A DNA stretch of 51,299 nt, from NCBI GenBank assembly GCA_031274765.1, contig JAISPR010000165.1, positions 1 to 51,299 of the forward strand. Reading direction: 5' to 3'. How positions within the stretch are numbered: the first letter of the stretch is position 1; each line of letters opens with the position of its first letter. Source of the stretch: Nitrososphaerota archaeon. GTDB taxonomy: Archaea; Thermoproteota; Bathyarchaeia; Bathyarchaeales; Bathycorpusculaceae. Position numbers and translations under genes: made by a program. The notes under the pieces were generated by a model, which worked only from the letters and a program-made list of their open reading frames with translations, was not told where the DNA came from and searched no databases. Below, piece after piece: positions 43,610 to 48,232 of the stretch.

Positions 43610-44221
43610 ATGCCGTTTAACCTATTTCACAAAAAAAAACCCAAAGACGAACCACATTTTACAGACCCAAAAGAGAAAACCCACCAAACCGCACTTATCC
43701 ACCCCCAAGAAACACCAGAAACAAATAACAACCAAACCACAAACACCCAAGAAAACCCACCAAACAACCCCCCAACCACCCAAAAAACCGATTTAGACAC
43801 CCAAGAAACCAAACCAAACCAAACCACACAAGAAGAAACACAAACCAAACAACCTAACACAGACACCCCAAATACTGAACCCCCCACTAAACAACAACAC
43901 GAAATACCAACAGAAACACTAAACAAAACCTACTTAAAAGCCATACCACTAAAAGACATATCAGACACAGAAAAAATCAAAACTGAAGTCAGCAACGGCA
44001 ACATTGTCATTTTACGCGTTACCCCTCTTGCAGGCAAAAGCATAGAAGACGTAAAAAATGTCGTTAACGACCTATTCCAATTCGCAGAAACCACAGGCGG
44101 CGACATCGCACGCTTAGGTGAAGAACGCGTAGTTATCTGCCCCAAAAATATCCGGATATGGCGGGAGAAAACCCCCATGCCAGTCGCAGGCAACACCGAA
44201 CCCTTGCCTACAGCAGCTTAA
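43610..44221 (+). CDS. sepF: SepF-family cell-division protein
   Basis: In archaea SepF anchors FtsZ to the membrane. The 203-residue protein has the expected three parts: a short amphipathic N-terminal membrane-targeting peptide (MPFNLFHKKKPKDE), a disordered linker of about 90 residues made almost only of T, N, Q, P, E and K, and a C-terminal SepF core (about 107-190) with YLKAIPLKDISDTEKIKTEV, VILRVTPLAGKS and GGDIARLGEERVVICPKN. The linker is coded by a strikingly A/C-rich strand. FtsZ is not in the window. The last 14 bp overlap the end of the convergent aCPSF1 gene. Confidence 0.88.
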   Translation: MPFNLFHKKKPKDEPHFTDPKEKTHQTALIHPQETPETNNNQTTNTQENPPNNPPTTQKTDLDTQETKPNQTTQEETQTKQPNTDTPNTEPPTKQQHEIPTETLNKTYLKAIPLKDISDTEKIKTEVSNGNIVILRVTPLAGKSIEDVKNVVNDLFQFAETTGGDIARLGEERVVICPKNIRIWREKTPMPVAGNTEPLPTAA

Positions 44222-46133
44222 AGGTTTCCAACGGCGCCGGAACCACAGTATTTATACCGGCCTTATTATCTAAGAAACCGGCAAAGTTTATGGTCTTCTG
44301 CTTTTCTCCGTGAACCACAAAAATACGTTCAGGTTTAGGAGACAGATGCGTGAGATAGTTAACAAGTTGCCGACGATCACTATGACCCGAGAAGCCCTCA
44401 ATAGTATTTACACCCAACTTGATACTTAGAGCAACCATTTTGCCCTCATTATCCATCATAGTTACTTCACCTATACCCTTTTGAACTCGACGACCCATAG
44501 TACCCTCAATTTGATAACTAACAAACACAATTGAGTTACGCTCATCTGAGGCCCAATGCTTAAAATATTCAATAACAGGACCACCCTCTAACATACCACT
44601 GGTTGCCAAAACAATACAGGGTTCACCCTCCATTATAGTTGAACGCTGACGGGGATGATCAACTATAGTAAAGTAATCAGATTGAAAGGGATTGACTTCT
44701 TCATGCAATATACTGTGACGAACTTCGCGACCCAAATATTCTGGATATGCAGTGTGAATAGCTGTGGCTTCACTTATCATACCTTCAATAAATACAGGCG
44801 CTTCCTTCATCATACCCCGCTTCATATAACCATCGATAACTAACATGATTTCCTGTGCACGCCCAACAGCAGGAACCGGAATGAGAACTTTACCCTTACG
44901 TTCAAGCGTTTGGTTAATCACCTTAGTCAGAGCTTCCTCTGCTTCAACACGAGAAGGCACAATATCATCAGGTCCACTGTAAGTGGATTCAGTGATAACA
45001 GTTTCGATTCGTGGAAACTCTGTTGCGGCCGCTTCAAGAAGCATAGTTCGGCCGAATTTATAGTCACCCGTGTAAACAACATTGTGCAACCCTTCACCTA
45101 TGTGAAGGTGTACCATAGCACCCCCCAAGATATGCCCACTATTGTGTAAAGTTAAACGAATATCGGGTGCAATATCTGTGACAACCCCAAAACGCAGAGG
45201 AATCGTGTGCAATACACATTCACGAACATCTTTTTGATCATAGAGCGGCATTACACCCTGCTTGTTAGCGACATCAAGATAATCAAGTTGAAGCATAGTC
45301 ATCAAGTTTGATGTTGGAGCAGAACAATAAACAGGGCCATCATAACCGTATTTGTAGAGAAAAGGAACTAAACCACAGTGATCAAGGTGAGCATGACTAA
45401 TAACAACAGCATCAAGCGAATCAATTTGGAATTCAGGAGAGTCAAATCGTGGGAACGATTCAAACGGACGATTACTACCAGGATGAATACCACAATCTAG
45501 AAGTACACTACTTTCACGGGTTTTGAGCAAAAAAGCAGAACGCCCAACCTCTTGTGCACCACCCAATACGGTAAGCCGAATGTCACCGACCTCGTAGGCC
45601 TTTGGACGAAAGATACGTTCACCTACGGTGCGAAGTATACGTTCACGCTCTTTACTCTCGGAGTGAAGATAGTGGCGCATATGAGTGACAATTTTGGATT
45701 TAATTGGTGGACTACGCAATACATGGGGGCGCCATTTGGTTTTTTTTATAATTTCTTGGAGAACAGCCCCGTTTCTACCAATAACTAAACCAGGCTTTTT
45801 GGTTTCGATTATGATTTCACCTAAACTTGGGTCAAAATTTATGTCTGTGATTTCTGCTTCAGGAGCGATGAGTTCACGAGTGATTTTTTCTGCTTCGACT
45901 TCAGGTATGCGAACGGAGGGGTCGGGTCGTATGACGATTCTTTTGCGGATAACACCAACGATTTCGGCCACGATGCTGCTTTGGTCGACTAGAATTTCGG
46001 GGCGTTTGGTGTAGACCGCAAGCATAGGTCCTTCATATTCGATTCGAGTGACTTCTGCTTCACGGGGAACTTTTTGAAGTATATATTGACTTACCTCTAT
46101 CTTGTCTTTGTCTTTTTCTTGGGTTCGTGCCAC
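44208..46133 (-). CDS. KH/beta-CASP ribonuclease aCPSF1 (FttA), transcription termination factor
   Basis: The archaeal CPSF73 homologue cleaves nascent RNA after U-tracts and terminates transcription genome-wide. The 641-residue chain has two N-terminal KH domains (about 1-145, with the GLVIGRNGAVLQ loop), a metallo-beta-lactamase domain with HAHLDH (247-252) and further metal ligands in NSGHILGGAM and YTGDYKFGR, and a beta-CASP domain ending with GFSGHSDRRQL and VVHGEKQK. GTG 46133 has AGGAAG upstream. It lies 5 bp after psmB, an arrangement conserved in many archaea. Three convergent gene ends in this window overlap, so efficient RNA 3' processing is needed here. Confidence 0.95.
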   Translation of the reverse strand: MARTQEKDKDKIEVSQYILQKVPREAEVTRIEYEGPMLAVYTKRPEILVDQSSIVAEIVGVIRKRIVIRPDPSVRIPEVEAEKITRELIAPEAEITDINFDPSLGEIIIETKKPGLVIGRNGAVLQEIIKKTKWRPHVLRSPPIKSKIVTHMRHYLHSESKERERILRTVGERIFRPKAYEVGDIRLTVLGGAQEVGRSAFLLKTRESSVLLDCGIHPGSNRPFESFPRFDSPEFQIDSLDAVVISHAHLDHCGLVPFLYKYGYDGPVYCSAPTSNLMTMLQLDYLDVANKQGVMPLYDQKDVRECVLHTIPLRFGVVTDIAPDIRLTLHNSGHILGGAMVHLHIGEGLHNVVYTGDYKFGRTMLLEAAATEFPRIETVITESTYSGPDDIVPSRVEAEEALTKVINQTLERKGKVLIPVPAVGRAQEIMLVIDGYMKRGMMKEAPVFIEGMISEATAIHTAYPEYLGREVRHSILHEEVNPFQSDYFTIVDHPRQRSTIMEGEPCIVLATSGMLEGGPVIEYFKHWASDERNSIVFVSYQIEGTMGRRVQKGIGEVTMMDNEGKMVALSIKLGVNTIEGFSGHSDRRQLVNYLTHLSPKPERIFVVHGEKQKTINFAGFLDNKAGINTVVPAPLETFKLL

Positions 46134-46138
46134 AGTGC

Positions 46139-46783
46139 TTAACTTCCTGCATGAAGCAGTTTGGCTTTTTCTTCAGCGGTTAGCTCGGTGTAACCGTGAC
46201 TGTTGATAACTATGATGTTGTAGCTATTACCTGAGGCCACGTCGCGTTTCATTGCAGCGTTAACGGCTCGGGCGATAACTGGCAGAGTTTCAGCTATGGT
46301 GCTGTCTTCTTTGAATTTGTCTTCCAATACACCAAGAGCAATTGGGGAGCCGCTGCCAGTAGATATCATTTTTTCCTCATTTAAACTTCCGTATGGATCT
46401 AAATTGAAGACATGAGAACCGGTGGTATCAATGCCGCCGACGAGAACTTGGGTTGATAGAGGAACATATCGTGCAGAGAAAAGCAGGTTAGCCACTAACC
46501 GAGCAGCTGATGCTACGGGGATAGGACGATTCATGTTGATTTTGTATAAGTGTGCATTGGCTATTAAAATATCGACAACACGTTGGGCATCGGCAACTGT
46601 ACCGGCAATAGTCATGCCAAGATGTTCATCAATTTTGTAGACTTTTTTACCTGCTTGATGAGCAATATAGTAACCCATAGTTACACGAGTATCGGAGGCC
46701 AATATTACGCCGTCTTTACAGACTACGCCTATGGTTGTTGTTCCTTTAAGGACTAATTGATTAGCTGGATTATTTTGTGACAT
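46139..46783 (-). CDS. psmB: Proteasome beta subunit
   Basis: The catalytic subunit of the archaeal 20S proteasome. With ATG 46783 (AGGGGA upstream), the precursor has a 14-residue propeptide ending LVLKG, and autocleavage exposes Thr15 of TTTIGVVCKDGVILASDTR. The catalytic Asp17-equivalent (SDTR) and Lys33-equivalent (AGKKVYKI) follow, as does GSGSPIALGVLE with the conserved Ser. The frame is open to an upstream ATG at 46846, which would give a 35-residue propeptide without a good ribosome-binding site. The 214-residue form is the usual length. It is directly upstream of aCPSF1 (5-bp gap), so co-transcribed. Confidence 0.95.
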   Translation of the reverse strand: MSQNNPANQLVLKGTTTIGVVCKDGVILASDTRVTMGYYIAHQAGKKVYKIDEHLGMTIAGTVADAQRVVDILIANAHLYKINMNRPIPVASAARLVANLLFSARYVPLSTQVLVGGIDTTGSHVFNLDPYGSLNEEKMISTGSGSPIALGVLEDKFKEDSTIAETLPVIARAVNAAMKRDVASGNSYNIIVINSHGYTELTAEEKAKLLHAGS

Positions 46784-46993
46784 AGGTTTATGTTCCCCTA
46801 AAACTCCGTTTTGCGGAATGCCATCCACTGAAGGAAGATGCACCATGTAATCTTTCTGTGCGCCTAATTAATATTTCGCCAAAGTAAAGTCAGTGATTTT
46901 TTATGTCGCTGTACATAATTTCACTTCTATTGCTCATAACAAGTTAAAGATGACCCTAAACGTTTTTAAGGCACTCAGAGTTTGACACAATTA

Positions 46994-47056
46994 ATTGGCG
47001 GGTGAGTGAGTCTCCCATCCGTTCCGCCAATAAAAATAAAACCCGGATCAGGGAGG
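46994..47056 (+). promoter_or_regulatory. Candidate H-type pseudoknot riboswitch sequestering the queT ribosome-binding site
   Basis: P1: ATTGGCGG (46994-47001) pairs with CCGCCAAT (47024-47031), eight perfect pairs, plus a G-U extension (47002 with 47023). The P1 loop holds CTCCCATCCG (47012-47021), which pairs with downstream CGGAT (47044-47048) and GGGAG (47051-47055), ten pairs with a two-base bulge (CA). The linking loop 47032-47043 is A-rich (AAAAATAAAACC). P2 buries AGGGAGG, the Shine-Dalgarno 8 nt before the queT TTG at 47065. A TATA-like TTTTTAAG at 46962-46969 would start transcription near 46993, the first base of P1. No known class consensus is claimed. Confidence 0.6.
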
Positions 47057-47064
47057 CAAAACAT

Positions 47065-47580
47065 TTGAAGATACAAAGTAAGAACTTAGCAATAATATCA
47101 ACGTATGGCGCCCTCTATGCGGCGTTGGTGATTTTTCTTCCAGGCATATCTTTTGGAATTGGTCAAGTCCGTGTGGCCGATGCATTGCTTGCCGTGGTGC
47201 CGCTTTTGGGCATACCGGGGGTTTTGGGACACACTTTAGGTGTTTTTGTTGCCAACCTGTTTTCGACACTTGGTCTCATTGATCTTCTTAACACAATACC
47301 ATCATTTGTCATGGCATTTGTTGTTTACTACGTTTATAGGCGCACTAAAAATGACTACACAATAATTGGAACCTGCATCGCTTACTCTGCAGTCTTAGGC
47401 TTAACAGTCGGGTGGATGCTCAATGCTGTATTGGATCTGCCCTTAATAGTCGCTATTGTGTCTGTGGCTTTTGGAAATATAATTGCTAGTGTATTTATTG
47501 GGTGGCCAATATTTAAGGCGCTCAAAAAAATTGGTGTATTTGAGAAATTGTTGGGGCAAGGGAGTAAAAATTATGCGTAA
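47065..47580 (+). CDS. queT: QueT-family 7-deazaguanine precursor transporter
   Basis: A roughly 171-residue integral membrane protein with five or six helices, of the QueT (ECF S-component-like) family that takes up queuosine/archaeosine precursors such as preQ0/preQ1. Family-like features are YGALYAALVIFLPGISFG in helix 1, the RVADALLAVVPLLGIPGV loop, GVFVANLF and VGWMLNAVLDLP. TTG 47065 with AGGGAGG 8 nt upstream is the preferred start. The frame also extends to GTG 47002, but that would place the start inside the predicted P1 stem. The stop overlaps the queC start by 8 bp. In Firmicutes queT genes are often under preQ1 riboswitches. Confidence 0.85.
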   Translation: MKIQSKNLAIISTYGALYAALVIFLPGISFGIGQVRVADALLAVVPLLGIPGVLGHTLGVFVANLFSTLGLIDLLNTIPSFVMAFVVYYVYRRTKNDYTIIGTCIAYSAVLGLTVGWMLNAVLDLPLIVAIVSVAFGNIIASVFIGWPIFKALKKIGVFEKLLGQGSKNYA

Positions 47581-48232
47581 TAAAAAATGTATAGTTGTGT
47601 TAAGCGGCGGTCTTGATTCCGCAGTTGTAGCATATTGGGCTAAGAAACAAAGTTATCAGATCTACCCTGTAACCTTCAATTATGGCCAAATTGCCATTAA
47701 AGAAACCCAGGCCGCCCAAAAAATCGCTCAAACACTTGACACTACCACAAAAATTATTGATCTCTCAGCACTCAAAGACATCTTTAACAGCACCACCGCT
47801 CTGGTGAACCGTGACATTTCGCTTAGCTCAGAATTTAGCAACGCTATTATTGTGCCCTTTCGCAATGCCATCTTTCTTTCCGCTGCTGTTGCATATGCTG
47901 TGACTGTGGATGTCACCGAAATTTTCTATGGCGCCCATGGTTCCGATGAACCCTTCTATCCTGATTGCAGACGCGAATTTTATGAAGCTTTTGAGAAAGC
48001 GGCACAATTAGGAACTGATTGTGATATTAGTATAAAAGCACCCTTTAGCGACAGACTCAAAGCTGAAGTCATCAGAGAAGGAGATAAACTAGAGGTCCCC
48101 TACCAACTTACATGGTCATGTTATCTTGATGGTTCCATACATTGCGGTCGATGTGAAGCCTGCATTAACCGCAAAAAAGCCTTCAGCGAGGCAAATATTG
48201 TTGACTCAACAAAATATGAGTATGTAGAATAA
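47573..48232 (+). CDS. queC: 7-cyano-7-deazaguanine (preQ0) synthase
   Basis: QueC turns 7-carboxy-7-deazaguanine into preQ0 with ATP and ammonia; in archaea preQ0 is inserted into tRNA by TGT and converted to archaeosine. The 219-residue protein has the PP-loop SGGLDS (11-16), VPFRNAIFLSAAVAYA and GAHGSDEPFYPDCR. Its C-terminal zinc site is made by the cysteines of TWSCYLDGSIHCGRCEACIN. ATG 47573 overlaps the queT stop (TAA 47578-47580), so the two are translationally coupled and presumably share control by the upstream leader. Length is normal. Confidence 0.95.
   Translation: MRNKKCIVVLSGGLDSAVVAYWAKKQSYQIYPVTFNYGQIAIKETQAAQKIAQTLDTTTKIIDLSALKDIFNSTTALVNRDISLSSEFSNAIIVPFRNAIFLSAAVAYAVTVDVTEIFYGAHGSDEPFYPDCRREFYEAFEKAAQLGTDCDISIKAPFSDRLKAEVIREGDKLEVPYQLTWSCYLDGSIHCGRCEACINRKKAFSEANIVDSTKYEYVE

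Follow-up and report, generated by a model that had tools for sequence, protein, structure and literature searches.

Three known riboswitch classes are found on the leaders of bacterial queT and queC genes, and all of them sense preQ1, the metabolite that the reviewed bacterial QueT carries (PMC11625349). The first of these, preQ1-I, has been reported from bacterial phyla only, preQ1-II forms an HLout pseudoknot with helices P1-P4 and is limited to Bacillota, and preQ1-III is about 100 nt long and has five helices, with a Shine-Dalgarno sequence that is far from the pocket (PMC11625349). The 2024 review of preQ1 riboswitches covers bacterial phyla only, and the word archaea is absent from it (PMC11625349). 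A further RNA of related layout is SAM-II, whose H-type pseudoknot is likewise compact and masks the Shine-Dalgarno sequence. Few riboswitches are known from archaea. In the literature searched, which left preprints and most subscription papers outside, we found no report of a riboswitch for preQ0, or of a comparable one in archaea, linked to archaeosine, or from Bathyarchaeia, in line with an earlier note, made from the sequence alone, that knew of no archaeal preQ1/preQ0 class. The leader described here is likely a member of an undescribed, widespread archaeal riboswitch class that senses a 7-deazaguanine, the binding of the ligand being inferred.

The window is the whole stretch of DNA that was analyzed, a bathyarchaeal contig of 51,299 nucleotides (JAISPR010000165.1). 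On its plus strand it encodes the ECF-type S component QueT (47065-47580, TTG start; Pfam QueT PF06177, E = 8.1e-21) and the 7-cyano-7-deazaguanine (preQ0) synthase QueC (47573-48232; Pfam QueC PF06508, E = 5.8e-62), the gene for which overlaps queT by 8 nt and also matches TIGR00364 above the cut-off of that model (E = 1.4e-56). The divergent neighbors on the minus strand encode a proteasome subunit (46139-46846) and the FttA transcription termination factor (44208-46133).

The leader of queT-queC spans 46990-47064, upstream of the TTG start codon at 47065, and two interleaved helices can be read from its plus strand. The first, P1, pairs 46994-47001 (ATTGGCGG), the universally conserved part of which is RGCGS at 46997-47001, with 47024-47031 (CCGCCAAT), resulting in eight Watson-Crick pairs plus G47002-U47023. 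The second, P2, pairs 47012-47021 (CTCCCATCCG), an anti-Shine-Dalgarno sequence, with 47044-47055 (CGGAT-CA-GGGAG), resulting in ten pairs and a 2-nt bulge at 47049-47050, and a further pair, T47011-G47056, is possible. Loop 1 (47002-47011) begins with a near-invariant GUGAG/GURR at 47002-47006, loop 2 (47022-47023) is UU, and loop 3 (47032-47043) consists of 12 nt, is A-rich, and ends in a conserved AAAYCC at 47038-47043. The Shine-Dalgarno sequence of queT is GGGAGG at 47051-47056. The earlier note had proposed both helices at these positions, the 12-nt A-rich loop, and queT and queC as the downstream genes, all of which held on direct reading of the sequence and on the Pfam matches. Most of the Shine-Dalgarno sequence lies in P2, with GGGAG inside the 3' strand. 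That pairing hides the Shine-Dalgarno sequence is shown, and the presence of this sequence in P2 links the core to an expression platform, which is a criterion for riboswitches.

The pseudoknot score of 27.5 was not reached when 46985-47070 was shuffled 3,000 times with dinucleotides preserved and searched again for interleaved helices (shuffle maximum 25.0, median 16.5). The nested folding energy of the leader is not unusual (z = -0.79) because nested folding cannot represent the pseudoknot; P2 is found in the minimum-energy structure and P1 in the centroid. Nested folding energy was dropped as evidence, and the pseudoknot shuffle test was used in its place.

Covariation was assessed with 207 non-redundant leaders, each with a pathway gene directly downstream, that were parsed on anchors without imposing pairing. 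Of these leaders, 183 have G-C as the closing pair of P1 and 20 have C-G, without any true mispair; the remaining four rows are parsing errors, two of which read P1 as ACGG/CCGU, itself compensated. Placed on the tree of QueT proteins, this pair changed three independent times, both sides together and never one alone. The outer R-Y pair of P1 occurs as G-C, A-U, C-G, U-A, and G-U/U-G. The three inner pairs hardly vary and therefore say little, being neutral on covariation. For the lower part of P2, the pairing energy of each leader's own strands was compared with that of strands swapped between leaders, yielding -12.3 versus -10.6 kcal/mol (n = 184; sd 0.13 over shuffles), and -11.0 versus -8.5 kcal/mol in the Asgard set. 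Helix P2 covaries even though the Shine-Dalgarno sequence forms its 3' strand, and its compensated forms include CTCCC/GGGAG, CACCTCC/GGAGGTG, CATCTCC/GGAGATG, TTTCCGAC/GTCGGAAA, ACATCTC/GAGATGT, CTCGCA/TGCGAG, and TTCGCA/TGCGAA. The comparison of own and swapped strands was used because lower P2 is in part out of place in the MAFFT alignment A1, such that the double changes seen there are partly artefacts. Two loose regular expressions were discarded as well, since they mis-registered P1. Ancestry is incompletely corrected in these tests, with the exception of the count on the QueT tree. The covariation check that had been proposed for homologous leaders was thus run, and covariation of both helices was seen in several classes of archaea, so the pseudoknot is a real RNA structure.

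A rival notion is that this region is a DNA operator or a short coding leader starting at GTG 47002, instead of an RNA element. In favor of this notion, the GTG frame runs open into queT in the window, and the inverted repeat is readable as an operator. Among the 187 leaders that have this GTG, however, the frame meets a stop within 20 codons in 116, indicating that it is not a conserved protein, and an operator leaves unexplained both the interleaved helices and P2 strands that change together with the Shine-Dalgarno strand. This alternative is all but excluded. Upstream of the RNA, a BRE/TATA-like promoter element is present at 46957-46970 on the plus strand (TTTTTAA at 46963-46969), and 205 homologous leaders show a peak, first A-rich and then T/A-rich, that lies 40 to 29 nt before the conserved GCGS of P1, besides which their upstream profile has no conservation. 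The fixed distance between this peak and P1 places the transcription start at about the foot of P1, near where the earlier note had put it, the start being inferred from the usual archaeal promoter spacing. In nearly all copies the start codon follows the 3' strand of P2 by a few nt; the position of the RNA between promoter and start codon is thereby shown.

The unpaired letters are strongly conserved in all three loops: GTGAG is present in loop 1 in 163 of the 207 copies and GURR in nearly all others, and in alignment A3, which covers 55 diverse copies, G9 and T10 never vary; loop 2 is TT in 193, AT in 8, and CT in 6; and the AAA.CCC anchor of loop 3 is present in essentially all copies, the length of this loop differing only on its 5' side. 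This unpaired core stays conserved across phyla, as expected of an aptamer, and covarying helices with a conserved unpaired core, another criterion for riboswitches, are therefore present. The GUGAG/GURR of loop 1 likely contributes pocket nucleotides, and the AAAYCC of loop 3 likely forms part of the pocket or a minor-groove triplex strand, both assignments being inferred without binding data. The conserved loops also argue against a constitutive structure, either an RNA thermometer or a ligand-free pseudoknot that tunes translation. P2 by itself can hide the Shine-Dalgarno sequence, but a thermometer would not be expected to keep its unpaired loop letters so constant between classes and in Asgard, nor to be associated with one pathway, and this explanation is very unlikely.

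Some copies deviate from the common form. In six leaders (L068, L082, L130, L131, L133, and L134), CCCCAAAA replaces CCCCGG and upper P2 is broken; this subtype often has AUGACAUAAA in loop 3, queT is still downstream, and it is possible that its pocket or ligand differs. The existence of a variant group in which AAAA takes the place of GG, so that upper P2 is disrupted, counts against the riboswitch model. In many copies, L115, L158, and L189 among them, P2 has CACCTCC as its 5' strand, the same letters (CACCUCC) with which archaeal 16S rRNA ends, and through this identity the leader mimics the anti-Shine-Dalgarno sequence of the ribosome itself.

The leader RNA is present at 27 queT loci including that of the window, the other QueT proteins being 56-71% identical to the window's, and 26 of these loci were used to build the covariance model R1. 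Within the order, 124 of 163 genomes match R1; for the class (Bathyarchaeia) the figure is 184 of 257, and for genomes sampled across the phylum it is 80 of 398, about 20 of these outside the class. An exact-pattern scan of the GTDB collection, whose counts are lower bounds, found the RNA in Bathyarchaeota, Methanomethylicia, Nitrososphaeria/Thaumarchaeota, and Asgard (Njordarchaeum, Odinarchaeia, and LC30). A broader model, R2, matches 16 of 227 Asgard phylum genomes at E <= 0.01, and in the Asgard matches inspected, L361-L373 with scores as low as 28 bits, a QueT-like gene lies a few nt downstream. The 60-base leader RNA with its pseudoknot is thus real and conserved in hundreds of genomes of Bathyarchaeia, Methanomethylicia, Nitrososphaeria, and Asgard, and, as a structured RNA conserved at the 5' end of mRNAs for metabolic genes, it satisfies a further criterion for riboswitches. 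This conservation is wider than a single sequence could show, and the riboswitch interpretation of the earlier note is supported.

Several matches were rejected. Bacteria (Pseudomonas, Mycolicibacter, Verrucomicrobia, and others) gave at least about a dozen exact pattern matches, which have neither queT/queC nor the conserved core letters and are attributed to chance, and four weak model matches of 17-23 bits (L073, L077, L081, and L136) were taken as false, having no pathway gene. Viral contigs gave no match to the leader RNA, and in plasmids the only matches were weak and partial, covering no more than 44% of the query with E >= 2. Four genomes of the same genus and family (G005, G008, G015, and G016) have a queT match and no match to the leader RNA, a point against the riboswitch model.

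The first gene downstream of the 207 copies, a set selected for a downstream pathway gene, is queT in 186, an unnamed membrane protein gene in 12, queE in 5, and queC in 4. The association does not rest on this selection: of 328 unfiltered pattern matches, a lower bound on their number, 298 lie no more than 2.5 kb from QueT or QueC, and the rest, chance bacterial matches and contig ends aside, have QueE or the unnamed membrane protein. One Nitrososphaeria bin (G586) contains three copies of the RNA: one heads queE and a frameshifted folE, another queE-queC, and the third queT-queC. The folE in the first of these (L350, G586:C1) is split over two frames by a frameshift or an assembly error. The contig with the RNA before queE-queC is identical, as far as compared, in two bins (L351, G586:C22; L353, G585:C48), which suggests sequence that is shared or mis-binned, and mis-binning is not excluded for this near-unchanged contig. 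The association of the RNA with genes of the preQ0 pathway is shown, and it extends to several different genes of one pathway (queT, queC, queE, and one frameshifted folE), as the criteria for riboswitches demand.

FolE, QueE, and QueC catalyze steps toward preQ0, and this gene context beyond queT supports a 7-deazaguanine ligand well. Searches of 257 Bathyarchaeia genomes found no QueF, the enzyme that would convert preQ0 to preQ1, with control searches giving the expected matches, and found the archaeosine tRNA-guanine transglycosylase (arcTGT) in 239; arcTGT is also present in the window's own genome. The absence of QueF and the presence of arcTGT indicate that preQ0 is made and used in these archaea and that preQ1 is not made, so that preQ1 is an improbable ligand of endogenous origin. 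It is possible that the same RNA instead binds preQ1, or else a 7-deazaguanine that is imported or derived (CDG, archaeosine base, or queuine), as suggested by the preQ1 specificity of the bacterial queT/queC leaders and of bacterial QueT (PMC11625349), and by the 117 of 207 copies in which queT is without queC in the same transcript. Against preQ1 stand the lack of QueF and the almost universal arcTGT, as well as the copies on queE and queE-folE, which suggest feedback by the product. Feedback by preQ0 is hence the simplest reading. The identity of the ligand had been inferred from gene context in the earlier note and is still an inference; preQ0 is favored since the class is without QueF, and we lean toward it by a modest margin, from context and without binding data.

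The changing set of downstream genes is also relevant to the possibility that the pseudoknot is a site for a regulatory protein, through autoregulation by a pathway enzyme or ribosomal protein, and not a metabolite aptamer. Repressor proteins also use conserved leader structures that hide the Shine-Dalgarno sequence, and no small-molecule binding data exist. Nevertheless, no gene for a regulator was observed to accompany the RNA, the core of the RNA remains constant while the gene below it changes (queT, queC, queE, or the unnamed membrane protein), and its size and layout fit known small-molecule pseudoknots, such that a protein site is unlikely.

The unnamed membrane protein has about 230-240 aa, and its gene lies immediately below the RNA; a small Cys-rich ORF comes next and, at some loci, queC. 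Its loci include ten from Bathyarchaeia (L086, L087, L257, L258, L266, L269, L275, L282, L287, and L293) and three of Nitrososphaeria type (L079, L177, and L231). It has no match in Pfam, NCBIfam, or PDB, its AlphaFold model is poor (pLDDT 56), and a profile comparison with QueT aligned 23 columns only. This family is a possible deazaguanine transporter, a suggestion inferred from gene context without transport data.

In the riboswitch model that we favor, the transcript would begin at about P1, which would fold first, after which the P1 loop and the downstream A-rich strand would build the H-type pseudoknot, with P2 as the second helix holding the Shine-Dalgarno sequence. A 7-deazaguanine would then bind a putative pocket of the conserved loops GUGAG, UU, and AAAYCC and stabilize P2. 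The most likely candidate is preQ0, in which the FolE-QueD-QueE-QueC pathway ends and which archaeosine TGT uses as its substrate. Stabilized P2 would block ribosome binding, turning both queT and queC off as a translational OFF switch, and when preQ0 is scarce, P2 would open and translation would start. That binding occurs and turns expression off is inferred. A bolder reading, which we hold with only slightly more confidence than doubt, is that no riboswitch class for 7-deazaguanines precedes this one in archaea and that it is the first to have evolved for preQ0 itself, acting across Bathyarchaeia, Methanomethylicia, Nitrososphaeria, and Asgard to control synthesis and import of the archaeosine precursor, including unnamed candidate transporters. 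If true, it would show how archaea regulate the supply of this precursor and would point to a new candidate transporter family.

The leader escapes the known families. No family of Rfam 15 reaches its gathering score in the window, a search of the window's leader at E <= 10 returned only three sub-threshold, unrelated models and no preQ1 model, and 15 diverse relatives returned nothing at E <= 0.05. The RNA resembles preQ1-I (RF00522) in its H-type pseudoknot, its A-rich 3' loop, and its location on queC-type operons and queT, but it does not match the covariance model of that class; preQ1-I is about half its size and has a short P2. It shares with preQ1-III (RF02680) a pseudoknot on queT leaders, but with about 60 nt and two helices, it meets neither the Rfam model nor the five-helix, roughly 100-nt architecture. 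Similarities to preQ1-II (RF01054, the COG4708/queT leader) are more extensive and include the location upstream of queT, the length of about 60 nt, translational control, and a second pseudoknot helix that takes in the Shine-Dalgarno sequence. Unlike preQ1-II, which requires a match to its Rfam model and P1-P4 with the extra hairpin P4, the archaeal leader has a short loop 3 without a conserved hairpin, has other conserved letters, is so far confined to archaea, and has preQ0 as its predicted ligand. Its layout is also that of SAM-II, from which it differs in genes, sequence, and ligand, with no Rfam match. With several hundred archaeal copies that escaped Rfam, deazaguanine sensing would gain a fourth solution, one that likely works in the manner of preQ1-II and SAM-II yet, by the tests made, stands outside the preQ1 classes.
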